Made by a program: the position numbers and the translations under genes. Below are positions 27,611 through 32,976 of a stretch of 36,327 nt of DNA, piece by piece. Within the stretch, counting starts at the first letter, position 1. Every line of letters starts with the position of its first letter. The stretch lies in assembly GCA_004376645.1 (NCBI GenBank), contig SOJC01000100.1:1-36327 (forward strand), written 5' to 3'. The DNA is from Candidatus Bathyarchaeota archaeon. GTDB lineage: Archaea; Thermoproteota; Bathyarchaeia; Bathyarchaeales; SOJC01. Below the pieces are notes generated by a model. It searched no databases and was not told the DNA's origin. It worked only from the letters and a program-made list of their open reading frames with translations.

Positions 27611-29611
27611 ACGCTCGGAAAAGTTTTGGTCACATGTGCGTGGCCTTATATCAACTATACTCCCCATCTGGGAACTATGATAGGGTCGGTTCTCTCAGCG
27701 GATGTTGTTGCTCGCTATTACCGTCTGAAGGGCGATGACGTGGTTTTTGTGAGTGGCTCAGATGAGCATGGGACTCCTATTGAGGTGGAAGCTGTCCGGC
27801 TAGGGATTTCACCGAAGAAGCTTACAGATGAGAACCACGCAAAAATTGTGGAGTTGTGGAAGAGATGGGGTATTAGCTTCGACAACTACACACGGACGGA
27901 AAGCCCGATCCATAAGGAGTTTGTGAAGAGTTTCTTTACGCGGATCTATAGGCGGGGCTATGTCTTTGCTCAGGATGTTGAGCTTCCCTTCTGTCGCAAG
28001 TGTGATCGGTTCTTGCCAGATCGGTTTGTGCAAGGTGTCTGCCCTAAATGTGGAGCTGAGGGAGCCCGTGGAGATCAATGTGAAAAATGTGACTGTCTTT
28101 TGGAGCCGGCAAAACTTGTTGATCCTGTCTGCGCTGTGTGTGGGTCTTCTCCTGTTATGAGGAAGGTGAAGCATTGGTATTTCGACCTAGCGAAGTTCTC
28201 TGGGGGTCTTTGCAAGTTTTTGGAGGAGAATGAGAGGTTGTCTCAGAACGCTAGGAAGTTTAGTTTGAACTTTATAGGGGGGGGTCTTAAGCCTAGATCT
28301 TTGACTAGGGATAATAAGTGGGGGATTCCAGCGCCTTTCCCGGGTGCGGAGGATAAGACTATCTATGTGTGGGTTGAAGCCGTCTTGGGATATGTTTCCG
28401 CGACTATCGAGTATTTTAGAGGTCGTGGGGAGGAGGAGAGGTGGAAGGAGTTTTGGTTCGATGGGGATGCGAAGACTCTTTACTTCATTGGGAAGGATAA
28501 CATTCCCTTTCACACAATTATTCTTCCTGCTCTCCTCCTTGCGAGTGGAGAAGGCTTCAACTTGCCGTGGAGTGTTTCTTCAACGGAGTTTTTGCAGTTT
28601 AAGGGTGAAAGTTTCTCTAAGAGTCGTAGGATTGGCATTTGGATTGATGAGGCTTTGGAGTTGTTCCAGGCGGATTATTGGAGGTACTTTCTTGTTTCAA
28701 CGAGGCCGGAGTCGAAGGATACTGATTTTTCTTGGGGGGTCTTTATTGAGAGGGTGAACTCTGATCTCAATGACACTTTGGGGAACTTTGTTCATAGAAC
28801 TCTCACATTCATCGGCAGATATTTCGATGGGAGGGTGCCTGACGGGGCTGATCTTGGCGACAGGGATAGAGAGGTCTTGCAATCTGTGCGCGAGTTGGTT
28901 GAGAGAGTGGCGAAGGAGTTGGAGGATTGTAAGCTTCAGGAGGCCTTGAGGACAGTTGTTGATGTCAGCCGGTTGGGAAACAGGTATTTTCATGAGAGGG
29001 CGCCGTGGAAGCTCATCAAGACTGATAGGGATGAGGCGGCGAAGGTTCTTTATGTAGCGGTTCAACTTGTCAAGACCTTGGCGATTGTTTTAAGTCCGTT
29101 TATGCCCTTCACGGCTGAGAGGATCTCCGCGCTTCTCAACTTGGTAGAGGATCAACGGAGAGGCTGGGAGGAAGCGGTAAAGCTTTTACCGTCCAATCAT
29201 GAGATAGGTAAGGCTGAGCCCTTGTTTGAGAAGATAATGGTTGATGGAGAGGAGTTGCAGGTTAGGTTGGAGAAAGCGAAGTCGTCAACGATAACTTTTG
29301 AGGAGTTCCTAAAGCTTGATTTGCGGGTGGGGGAGATTGTAGAGGCTGAGATGGTTCCGAAGTCTAAGAGTCTTGTGAGGCTTGGGATCGATGTTGGCGG
29401 TGGCGTTGTGAAGCAGGCTGTGGCAGGGATTGCAGGGCAGTATGAGCTTAAGCAGCTTTTAGGCTTGAAGGTGGCGGTTTTGGCTAATTTGGAGCCGAAG
29501 CGTATCTTCGGTTTGGACTCTGAGGTGATGATCTTGGCAGCAGAAGACGGTGGGAACATTTCCATTTTGATGCCTGACAAGCCGGTTAAATCGGGTAGTA
29601 AGATAAAGTGA
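27611..29611 (+). CDS. metG: Methionyl-tRNA synthetase with fused C-terminal tRNA-binding (Trbp111/EMAP-II-like) domain
   Basis: KVLVTCAWPYINYTPHLG, FSKSRRIG, zinc knuckles, C-terminal LDLRVGEIVEAE. TTG 27626 is the first standard start; homology and SD placement suggest initiation near ACG 27611. Confidence 0.92.
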   Translation, partial: TLGKVLVTCAWPYINYTPHLGTMIGSVLSADVVARYYRLKGDDVVFVSGSDEHGTPIEVEAVRLGISPKKLTDENHAKIVELWKRWGISFDNYTRTESPIHKEFVKSFFTRIYRRGYVFAQDVELPFCRKCDRFLPDRFVQGVCPKCGAEGARGDQCEKCDCLLEPAKLVDPVCAVCGSSPVMRKVKHWYFDLAKFSGGLCKFLEENERLSQNARKFSLNFIGGGLKPRSLTRDNKWGIPAPFPGAEDKTIYVWVEAVLGYVSATIEYFRGRGEEERWKEFWFDGDAKTLYFIGKDNIPFHTIILPALLLASGEGFNLPWSVSSTEFLQFKGESFSKSRRIGIWIDEALELFQADYWRYFLVSTRPESKDTDFSWGVFIERVNSDLNDTLGNFVHRTLTFIGRYFDGRVPDGADLGDRDREVLQSVRELVERVAKELEDCKLQEALRTVVDVSRLGNRYFHERAPWKLIKTDRDEAAKVLYVAVQLVKTLAIVLSPFMPFTAERISALLNLVEDQRRGWEEAVKLLPSNHEIGKAEPLFEKIMVDGEELQVRLEKAKSSTITFEEFLKLDLRVGEIVEAEMVPKSKSLVRLGIDVGGGVVKQAVAGIAGQYELKQLLGLKVAVLANLEPKRIFGLDSEVMILAAEDGGNISILMPDKPVKSGSKIK

Positions 29612-29618
29612 ACGTACT

Positions 29619-30269
29619 GTGCCTCTGAGAATCGACTTGCACGTGCACACTGTGCACTCCGTTGATTCTTTCATTACAGCGAAGGAGTTAGCTTTCTTCA
29701 TGAAGAAACGAGGGTTAGACGGAGTCGCCATAACTGATCATGACACGGTTAGTGGTTTTAGGGAATTTAGGAAGAAGCTTGACATGCTTCTTATTCCAGG
29801 AGTTGAGGTTTCTACAGGTCAGGGACACGTTTTAGGTATTGGCGTGGAGAGAATGGTTGAGGCTGGGCTGTCTTTTGCGGAGACGATTGATCTCATTCAT
29901 GATGCCGGTGGCTTAGCGATAGTTGCTCATCCCACTGCGTTCTTCAAGGGAATCCCGGAGGAAAGATTGGATGAAGGGTTTGACGGGATGGAAGTAGTTA
30001 ACGCTTCTGCTGTACCCTTCCATTATTCGGTGCGGAAGAACAGGATGCTGGCGGTTAAGCTTGATCTTCCTCAGACTGGAGGGAGCGATGCCCATTATGG
30101 GCCGGAGGTGGGGATGGGATATTCTTTGGTGGATGCAGATGGAGAAGTTGATGAGGTTATCGGGGCGATTAGGAGGGGGGCAGTGAAGCCCTTTGGTAGG
30201 GGTATTCCTTGGAGTACGAGGGTGAAAAGAGGGTTCTACAATTTTAAGAGGTTAGTGGGGAAGCTTTAG
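29619..30269 (+). CDS. PHP-domain metal-dependent phosphoesterase
   Basis: RIDLHVHTVHSVDSF, AITDHDTVSGF, GVEVSTGQGHVLGIG, GSDAHYGPEVG. Confidence 0.92.
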   Translation: MPLRIDLHVHTVHSVDSFITAKELAFFMKKRGLDGVAITDHDTVSGFREFRKKLDMLLIPGVEVSTGQGHVLGIGVERMVEAGLSFAETIDLIHDAGGLAIVAHPTAFFKGIPEERLDEGFDGMEVVNASAVPFHYSVRKNRMLAVKLDLPQTGGSDAHYGPEVGMGYSLVDADGEVDEVIGAIRRGAVKPFGRGIPWSTRVKRGFYNFKRLVGKL

Positions 30270-31321
30270 AAGTTTTCCAGTTGGTGTAGATCTAGATCTA
30301 TTGGTAGTTTTTTCTCTCGTGTTGAGTAGGGTTCTAGGTTGAAGAGTTGTGGTGTTATGGTGCTTAGGTTTGTGGTGGGGTTTGGTGGGTTGATTCCGGT
30401 TATGATGACGGTGACTCTGAATCTGCCGTTGAGTTCAGGGTCTACTTTGGCGCCCCAGATTAGGGAGTTGCTTCTCATGCTTTCAGTTATGAAGCTCTGC
30501 AGGTGATCGACTTCATCGACTGTTATGGATCTGTTGCCTGTGACGTGCACTATTGTGTGGAGGGGTTCCGCAGGGTTGGTGTTGATTAGTGGGTTGTGTA
30601 GGGTGTTGCAGGCTGCTTCTTCCGCGTTGTTTAGGGTGGTTGACTCTCCAATTCCTACTAGTGCGGCTCCGCCTTTCTCGAAGAGGGTTCCGATGGTGAC
30701 GGGGTTGTCCTGGTTTGGGTTTGAGAGGACTTCGATCATGCTCTTTATTATTGTAGCTGAGACTTGTTGGCTGATTGGCTTAGTTTCTTCTGTTGGAATT
30801 TGAGGTAGCTGCTGTTTTAGTGTTTTGTCGTCGATTAGTATTGTCGTGTCCCATTGTTGTCTGAATTTGACAAGTTTAGATTTGCTTTCTGCGTTTTGTG
30901 GGGGTGTTGTTATTACGCCTACTATTGTCGTGTCTTTTCTTTGCGCGGCTTGTGTGATGACTGTTGCGATTTCGCATTCTGTGTTGTTTTCTAGGTTGGT
31001 GGTGAGGAATATGATGTCTGTTTTGTCGAGTATGGTTTCTAGTTTGGGGGGTGTTGTGGTCTGGTTGGCGGGTTTGATGTTGATTAGTATTTTGTGGTTT
31101 GCGTGTGAGTTGTTTATTAGTTTGGGGTTTGTGGTGATGATTGCTGTGGGGGTTGTTGTGGGTTTTGTTTTTGTTAGTTGTGTGATTGTTTGGTTGCCGT
31201 GTTCGCTGATGCCGATGATGAGGGTTTTGGGGTGGGTTGGTTGTTGTGTGGTGTCGGCTTGTCTGAGGGTGCCTTGCCATCTTGGTTGTAAGGCTTTGTT
31301 AGTTTGTTTTTTGCCAGCCAT
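30266..31321 (-). CDS. Divergent FtsZ-superfamily protein with degenerate GTPase motifs
   Basis: GGAALVGIGESTTLNNAEEAACNTLHNPLI, IVHVTGNRSITVDEVD, LIWGAKVDPELNGRFRVTVIITGI match FtsZ; T4 loop GGGTGTG is replaced by ENNTECE. Confidence 0.85.
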   Translation of the reverse strand: MAGKKQTNKALQPRWQGTLRQADTTQQPTHPKTLIIGISEHGNQTITQLTKTKPTTTPTAIITTNPKLINNSHANHKILINIKPANQTTTPPKLETILDKTDIIFLTTNLENNTECEIATVITQAAQRKDTTIVGVITTPPQNAESKSKLVKFRQQWDTTILIDDKTLKQQLPQIPTEETKPISQQVSATIIKSMIEVLSNPNQDNPVTIGTLFEKGGAALVGIGESTTLNNAEEAACNTLHNPLINTNPAEPLHTIVHVTGNRSITVDEVDHLQSFITESMRSNSLIWGAKVDPELNGRFRVTVIITGINPPNPTTNLSTITPQLFNLEPYSTREKKLPIDLDLHQLENF

Positions 31322-31469
31322 TTCTATTCCTCTCCCAAACCTCTGTGGTTAGCATGTCTCTTATGGCGTTGCGTATTGCTTCTGCCCTGTTTGGGTAAAA
31401 TTGCTCGTTTACAAGTCGGTCGAGTGCTCGTAGGTATGGTTCGGGGAGATATAGGGTGATGAGTTTTAT
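31299..31469 (-). CDS. Ribbon-helix-helix (CopG/CdrS-like) DNA-binding protein, not in the ORF track
   Basis: Manual translation: (I)KLITLYLPEPYLRALDRLVNEQFYPNRAEAIRNAIRDMLTTEVWERNRNGWQKTN*; SD GGAGG at 31479-31483; no standard start in frame, ATA at the Met position; overlaps the ftsZ-like start. Confidence 0.75.
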   Translation of the reverse strand: MKLITLYLPEPYLRALDRLVNEQFYPNRAEAIRNAIRDMLTTEVWERNRNGWQKTN

Positions 31470-31686: not shown

Positions 31687-32976
31687 GTGGCTTCTGTGCG
31701 AGTGTACGTCAAAGGCTTCGGTTGTTCAAGTAGCATCGCAGACGCAGAGGTCCTCGCTGGTTGTCTTGGGAGGGCTGGGCATACTTTGGTTGGGGGTTCT
31801 GAGATGGCTGAGGTGTTGGTGTATAATACTTGTGCGGTTAAGGGTCCTACTGAGAATCGTATGATTAGTCTTTTGAAGAAGGTGTCGGAGGGGCAGAAGC
31901 TTGTTGTGGCGGGGTGTTTGCCTCTCATTAACTTTGAGAGGTTGAGGAGAGAGGTTTCTTTTGACGGGGTTGTGGGCCCGGCTTTTGGGGAGGGTATTGT
32001 GGAGGTTGTGGAGATGGTTGCTTCGGGGGGACGGGTTGTACGGTTGGGTGGGGATCTGGTTAGGGTGCCTCCTGTTGATCTGCCTCGCAAGCGTGTTAAT
32101 TTGAGGATCGGTATTGTTCCGATAAGTTATGGCTGTTTGGGTTCTTGTAGTTATTGTTGTGTGCGGTTTGCTCGTGGGAAGTTGAGGAGTTACGGGATTC
32201 GGGATGTTGTGGGGAGGGTTGAGAGGGATGTTGCTGAGGGGGTGCGGGAGATCTGGTTGACGTCTCAGGATACTGCAGCTTATGGGATGGATCTTGGCAC
32301 CTGTCTGCCTGAGTTGCTGGAGGCTGTTTGTGGTGTTGAGGGGGAGTTCTTTGTTCGTGTTGGTATGATGACTGTGAATAACTTGTTGGGTTTCTTGGAT
32401 GAGTTGTTGGAGGTGTTTCGTGATGGGAAGGTGTTCAAGTTTCTGCATCTGCCGGTTCAGAGTGGTGATGATCAGGTTTTGAAGGGGATGAACCGGTTTT
32501 ATTCGAGAGATGATTTTGTTGGGGTAGTTGAGGGGTTTAGGAGGGTTTTTCCTTGGTCTACTGTGATGACTGATGTGATTGTTGGGTTTCCAGGGGAATG
32601 TGAGGAGGCGTTTAAGCGTAGTTGCAGGTTGGTTGAGGAGGTTAAGCCGGATGTTGTGAATGTTTCAAAGTTTTTTGGGAGGCCTGGGACCGCGGCTTTG
32701 GATATGGAGTTACAGGTTGACGGGTTGGCTGTGAAGGGGAGGAGTCGTGTCTTGTCGGATCTGGTGCGGAGGGTTGCTTTGGAATGTAATAGGAGGTGGG
32801 TGGGTTGGAGAGGGCGGATCTTGGTTGACGAGGTTGGTAAGGGTGATTGTGTGGTGGGACGGAATTCTGCGTATAAGCCTGTTGTGGTTGCGGGTGCGAG
32901 GGGGTTGTTGGGGAAGTTTGTTTCGGTGGAGGTTGTTGATGCTTTTCAATCTTATCTTAAGGGTGAGATTGTCTGA
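31687..32976 (+). CDS. tRNA t6A37 methylthiotransferase-like radical SAM protein (e-MtaB/MiaB family)
   Basis: KGFGCSSSIADAEVLAG, NTCAVKGPTENRM, radical SAM GCLGSCSYCCVRFARG, LPVQSGDDQVLKGMNRFY, C-terminal TRAM-like region. Confidence 0.92.
   Translation: MASVRVYVKGFGCSSSIADAEVLAGCLGRAGHTLVGGSEMAEVLVYNTCAVKGPTENRMISLLKKVSEGQKLVVAGCLPLINFERLRREVSFDGVVGPAFGEGIVEVVEMVASGGRVVRLGGDLVRVPPVDLPRKRVNLRIGIVPISYGCLGSCSYCCVRFARGKLRSYGIRDVVGRVERDVAEGVREIWLTSQDTAAYGMDLGTCLPELLEAVCGVEGEFFVRVGMMTVNNLLGFLDELLEVFRDGKVFKFLHLPVQSGDDQVLKGMNRFYSRDDFVGVVEGFRRVFPWSTVMTDVIVGFPGECEEAFKRSCRLVEEVKPDVVNVSKFFGRPGTAALDMELQVDGLAVKGRSRVLSDLVRRVALECNRRWVGWRGRILVDEVGKGDCVVGRNSAYKPVVVAGARGLLGKFVSVEVVDAFQSYLKGEIV

Follow-up and report, generated by a model that had tools for sequence, protein, structure and literature searches.

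Degenerate FtsZ and Free-Standing FtsZ Tails at a Conserved Locus in Bathyarchaeia

Results

The ftsZ locus

The DNA analyzed here (the window, a stretch of 36,327 nucleotides) belongs to a metagenome-assembled genome (MAG) from Bathyarchaeia, 1.25 Mb in 142 contigs and 94.7% complete. It carries an ftsZ orthologue devoid of GTPase motifs, a small ribbon-helix-helix (RHH) gene overlapping the start of that orthologue, and flanking genes that serve as markers of conserved synteny:

27626..29611, plus strand: metG (methionyl-tRNA synthetase), conserved synteny marker
29619..30269, plus strand: PHP-domain protein gene, convergent with ftsZ, conserved synteny marker
30266..31321, minus strand: ftsZ orthologue lacking GTPase motifs (351 aa; stop codon at 30266-30268)
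30269..30391, minus strand: conserved C-terminal tail of FtsZ, residues 311-351 (...PQLFNLEPYSTREKKLPIDLDLHQLENF), the part surviving alone in relatives
30392..30670, minus strand: FtsZ_C domain (PF12327), residues 218-310
30677..31231, minus strand: degenerate GTPase (tubulin) domain, residues 31-215, with T1, T2, T3, T4, and T7 lost and a Rossmann-like fold still predicted
31232..31321, minus strand: N-terminal segment, residues 1-30, with Q12, W15, and Q16 invariant
31299..31469, minus strand: RHH (CopG/CdrS-like) gene, 56 codons, sharing 23 nt with the start of ftsZ
31687..32976, plus strand: radical SAM methylthiotransferase-like gene, divergent, conserved synteny marker

The order metG-PHP-[RHH-ftsZ]-radical SAM is common to the window's family (f1) and to families f2 and f7, and is partially preserved in f4 and f6. 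At the syntenic locus of relatives ftsZ is mostly fully canonical, and the common gene order thus identifies the window protein as an orthologue of the canonical FtsZ in related families, an assignment also backed by the shared RHH gene, which lies directly upstream of ftsZ in nearly all relatives. The product of the RHH gene matches PF01402 at 28.4 bits (cut-off 20.5). Its first codon is ATA where relatives have ATG, GTG, or TTG, and there is no in-frame start nearby upstream; a non-canonical start, a mutation, and a sequence error are the alternatives. We infer a cdrS-ftsZ2-like operon, with the FtsZ1/FtsZ2 class read from the RHH neighbor.

Is this an extra FtsZ, as the first-pass annotation had supposed in calling it a paralogue that might cap or modulate a canonical FtsZ? 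No other match to PF00091 and no other above-cut-off match to PF12327 was found in the window genome. Together with synteny, this rejects an extra paralogue beside a canonical FtsZ in this genome: by gene order the gene is a single-copy orthologue of canonical FtsZ, and no second FtsZ was found for it to modulate. Of the two partners proposed for a search elsewhere in the genome, SepF is present, on contig C142, and a canonical FtsZ was not found. A horizontally acquired gene or phage tubulin is rejected by synteny as well.

The ftsZ locus is missing from G001, G002, and G008, in which the neighboring genes are also missing or divergent, so that the closest relative within the genus is left out of the comparison. 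The metG of G001 (L163, contig C94), a genome of the same genus, is 38% identical to that of the window and contains an in-frame TAG, possibly through contamination, replacement, or stop read-through. In G028 (L213) the RHH-like protein is unusual in being longer, and searches detected no FtsZ and no SepF there, possibly a case of joint loss.

An FtsZ homologue with degraded GTPase loops

The frame was correctly placed by the first-pass annotation as an FtsZ-family protein, and lies on the minus strand. Its product matches FtsZ_C at 66.4 bits (cut-off 27) and aligns with M. jannaschii FtsZ over residues 27-312 in phmmer (E = 9e-25). It has no Pfam match to the Tubulin/GTPase domain PF00091, Tubulin_2 (PF13809) is absent from its Pfam matches at E up to 1, and its score against the NCBIfam ftsZ equivalog TIGR00065, 88.9 bits, falls far under the cut-off of 295. 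These searches bear out the earlier description of a non-GTPase FtsZ that retains FtsZ_C and is distinct from FtsZl. Orthologues of 360-380 aa align with it end to end at 35-43% identity. Conservation rises along the protein: relative to G009, identity is 31% in the GTPase half, 49% in FtsZ_C, and 66% in the tail. Relative to G009 and G012, the N-terminal segment is 53-63%, the GTPase half 31-34%, and the tail 61-66% identical. Q12, W15, and Q16 of the N-terminal segment are invariant in 9/9 full-length members of f1, decayed ones included.

Since the minus strand is extremely A/C-rich at ftsZ, the open frame alone is weak evidence of a gene. A chance frame is ruled out by the orthologue alignment, by codon-position identity to G009 (0.60/0.70/0.49), and by composition-matched simulation, in which 360 open codons arose in 1/300 four-kb stretches. 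Homology and fold carry the identification, and the frame is confirmed as a real FtsZ homologue. A frameshift, named at the outset as what could overturn the reading, is ruled out, as is a misassembly, by the lack of an internal stop, the end-to-end alignment, and the existence of similarly decayed relatives.

In the alignment to its orthologues, the window protein reads GISEHGNQ at T1 (GVGGAGNN in orthologues), IITTN at T2 (AINTD), ENNTECE at T4 (GGGTGTG), and P--VTI at T7 (LDFADF), where the NxDxxD pattern is absent; T3, GLGxGG(N/D)P in orthologues, is deleted. The degeneracy of the nucleotide-binding and catalytic loops noticed at first reading thus holds. With the loops for GTP binding and hydrolysis gone, the protein should not make GTP-driven filaments. 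An AlphaFold2 model built on a 20-sequence alignment has a mean pLDDT of 59, with values mostly about 70-89 over the Rossmann part (residues 31-200), and the best Foldseek matches to it in the PDB are all FtsZ (E = 4.5e-12, TM 0.58-0.60), in keeping with the FtsZ fold anticipated for it. The modeled GTPase half thus retains the look of an FtsZ body that folds but has no active site.

The plus strand between 26000 and 36000 of the window is extremely G/T-rich, with a GC skew of 0.29-0.57 over most of the stretch. Third codon positions are 89% A/C in ftsZ and 88% G/T in the radical SAM gene, and the window protein contains 15% Thr and 4% Gly, compared with about 6-8% and 10%, respectively, in intact orthologues. 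This bias, which alone pushes Gly and Val codons toward Thr, Asn, Pro, and Gln, explains why the window protein is rich in these four residues. It did not cause the decay, because other decayed orthologues are near-balanced at third positions, and strand bias as the sole cause is rejected: relatives have decayed without it being extreme. Deamination of long-exposed single-stranded DNA would give such an asymmetry. G012, G007, and G009 show a weaker strand asymmetry immediately outside this locus.

Graded decay within the family

Within f1, the orthologues form a series. FtsZ is intact in G006, and G009 has intact T4 and T7; G007 and G012 have lost part of the motifs (T4 SGGTGIG and SGGTGME; T7 FGLANF and FDLANF); in G003, G005, G010, and the window protein, T2, T3, T4, and T7 are degraded and T1 is changed; and G004 and G011 are shortened to about 300 aa. 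The open frame is unbroken in every decayed member that we read. Low PF00091 scores are also found in a pair from genus g54 of f7 (G125 and G126).

In a tree of five neighboring genes, G009 sits among decayed genomes. A single ancestral loss in f1 is rejected, the decayed genomes forced into one clade giving an AU p of 0.017; with bootstrap values of only 36-57 at the deep f1 nodes, the number of losses is uncertain, though more than one. As judged from the loops of these genomes, all of them MAGs, Bathyarchaeia have lost the predicted GTPase machinery of FtsZ independently in several lineages. The core dN/dS is raised where decay is under way: it is 0.06 (G016/G023) and 0.01 (G013/G021) in intact pairs, and 0.50 (G007/G012) and 0.36 (G004/G011) in decaying ones. 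In the tail it is 0.11-0.18 where estimable.

Tail-only proteins

Behind the RHH gene, the locus in f7 encodes a protein of only ~95-115 aa, in which a variable linker joins the start of FtsZ to its tail (tail consensus LYDLE....EKxLxIDLxLYQMEDY). When 163 genomes of the order were searched with a profile, open frames of 84-119 aa turned up in 50 f7 genomes, and such frames in several f6 genomes; some of these frames could be contig ends. Thirty-four tail-only proteins from f7 and f6 were read directly, and the RHH gene lies upstream in 30 of the 33 scanned for it. The f6 forms are 63-96 aa long, so that the reduction happened in a second family besides f7. Among the f7 proteins, the tail has a mean pairwise identity of 63% and a pooled dN/dS of 0.09; the values for the linker are 31% and 0.27. 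Those scanned have no Pfam match and no NCBIfam match above cut-off, and annotation would consequently not link them to division.

A second FtsZ, with a GTPase domain that scores as intact, is present in eight f7 genomes with a tail-only protein (G064, G075, G079, G084, G087, G088, G090, and G128), and none was found in others of at least 95% completeness (G034, G031, G025, G118, and G121). That only the short conserved ends survive in dozens of relatives suggests that the tail has a job needing no FtsZ filaments. Several f7 genomes also encode a Tubulin_2 (FtsZl-type) protein of ~890 aa (e.g., L282:2154-4832), and some of these genomes have, about 3 kb off on the opposite strand, a frame of ~390 aa that gives a second, weak match to PF00091.

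SepF and Cdv proteins

The window genome contains a complete CdvB-CdvA-CdvB-Vps4/CdvC cluster on contig C97. Snf7 was found in 37/41 genomes and SepF in 39/41, including all decayed and tail-only genomes examined, with its core conserved. Retention of SepF is not specific to decay, since genomes with intact FtsZ conserve SepF just as well; the same holds for the tail.

Archaeal SepF binds the FtsZ C-terminal peptide, in which a GID motif is near-invariant (PMC8178401). No GID was found in the tail described here, which reads [IVL]D[LF]xL(Y/H)Q(L/M)E, with an [IVL]D[LF] step and usually F or Y as the last residue. The lack of GID genuinely counts against its being a textbook peptide for SepF; the partner could be a Cdv protein.

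In three f6 genomes (G024, G030, and G033; loci L205, L206, and L209), the SepF motif DIARLGEER, as compared with L099 of the window genome, has become DIASLGEER (R-to-S), and divergent tails were read in G024 and G030. A divergent FtsZ tail is found in G020 as well, which has no SepF match. Co-evolution of tail and SepF is possible, these observations being hints only.

Discussion

We propose the following model for the fate of FtsZ in Bathyarchaeia. The loops for GTP binding and hydrolysis are gone from the sequence, and GTP-driven filaments would not be expected. The gene is intact in sister families, has decayed independently in more than one lineage, and is reduced in two other families to a tail-only form of ~60-105 aa. 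Constriction may have been taken over by CdvA, CdvB, and CdvC, which would have removed selection on the GTPase. Most likely, the tail is a short adaptor peptide: by docking on membrane-bound SepF, it could recruit or regulate, at the site of division, SepF or a Cdv component reached via SepF. The window protein would have a dead yet folded FtsZ body as the carrier for its tail. We consider it reasonably probable that division passed to Cdv/ESCRT-III, that the GTPase became dispensable, and that the FtsZ tail stayed on as an adaptor peptide, probably one for SepF. The fuller sequence of events, in which a filament-forming FtsZ GTPase turned, on more than one occasion, into a dead, folded carrier and then into a free-standing tail protein of ~100 residues in the cdrS operon, working with SepF in ESCRT-III division, is put forward tentatively, at somewhat less than an even chance.

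Could the tail bind a Cdv/ESCRT-III protein (CdvA, CdvB, or CdvC) directly, and not SepF? The Cdv cluster of the window genome and the presence of ESCRT-III in nearly all relatives would fit such a partner, but the tail is just as conserved where FtsZ is intact, and SepF is the established archaeal partner of FtsZ (PMC8178401); we regard direct binding as unlikely.

Relaxed selection might by itself account for the decay, with Cdv having taken over and FtsZ left as a near-pseudogene with no present function, its composition set by strand-biased mutation. The graded loss across f1, the core dN/dS raised to 0.36-0.50, and the composition of the window protein (15% Thr, 4% Gly, 89% A/C third positions) are what this would predict. 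However, dN/dS of the core does not reach 1, every decayed family member read has an unbroken frame, the Rossmann part is predicted with a pLDDT of about 70-89 over most of residues 31-200, both ends are conserved, and other decayed orthologues lack the extreme strand bias. Tail-only proteins, moreover, persist across dozens of species with a tail dN/dS of 0.09, and for the tail the idea is largely refuted. As an account of the whole protein, we judge it rather improbable.

The predicted persistence of the fold, the FtsZ_C match at 66 bits, and the core dN/dS below 1 would also suit the first-pass idea of a folded, non-GTPase scaffold, whose dead body copolymerizes with FtsZ, caps it, or binds a partner through its surface. 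Such a role is doubtful, given that no canonical FtsZ was found in the genome to cap or join and that relatives drop the whole body while keeping the tail. Finally, although the window genome is a MAG of 142 contigs, an assembly or frame error concealing an intact FtsZ is exceedingly improbable, as there is no internal stop, orthologues align end to end, and independent MAGs are similarly decayed, including the single-contig assemblies G003, G005, G010, and G011.

What is the relevance of an FtsZ reduced to its tail? The switch of archaea from FtsZ to ESCRT-III (Cdv) division is still debated, usually on the grounds of which genes are present or absent. At the locus described here, intermediates can be seen: related genomes with SepF and Cdv hold FtsZ ranging from intact through catalytically dead and shortened to tail-only. 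Our favored model, in which the tail is retained as an adaptor, predicts a role for the FtsZ tail and SepF that can be separated from FtsZ polymerization. If true, the conversion of FtsZ into a peptide would be a living record of the replacement of FtsZ division by Cdv.

Relation to known systems

A degenerate FtsZ beside Cdv is already known; a free-standing FtsZ tail was not found described. Our literature search, which covered few subscription journals and is weak evidence, returned nothing on FtsZ decay in Bathyarchaeia or on a stand-alone FtsZ tail. Among the closest parallels is Nitrosopumilus maritimus, likewise a TACK archaeon with a Cdv system, whose degenerate FtsZ (Nmar_1262) has AGKAGSA for GGGTGTG, lacks the T7 loop, and does not polymerize in yeast (PMC3684127). 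Whereas the Nitrosopumilus protein was reported as one degenerate FtsZ, Bathyarchaeia present a same-locus series of intact, dead, and tail-only forms with more than one independent loss. FtsZl/Tubulin_2 proteins (PF13809) resemble the window protein as divergent prokaryotic members of the tubulin superfamily, but the latter carries FtsZ_C without matching Tubulin_2, and FtsZl-type genes are separate in some f7 relatives.

In Haloferax volcanii, the gene for a small RHH regulator lies directly upstream of ftsZ in cdrS-ftsZ2 (PMC8406309), as the RHH gene does in the window. FtsZ2 of Haloferax is a GTPase, and constriction depends on this activity (PMC7617429); its Bathyarchaeia counterpart, in contrast, appears GTPase-dead by its motifs or is reduced to a tail. 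SepF is essential in H. volcanii, and both ftsZ genes can be deleted (PMC7617429). The complex of an M. smithii FtsZ peptide with SepF (7AL2) shares with the window a short conserved C-terminal FtsZ peptide and the presence of SepF; it differs in that the window tail, a putative SepF ligand, has no GID.
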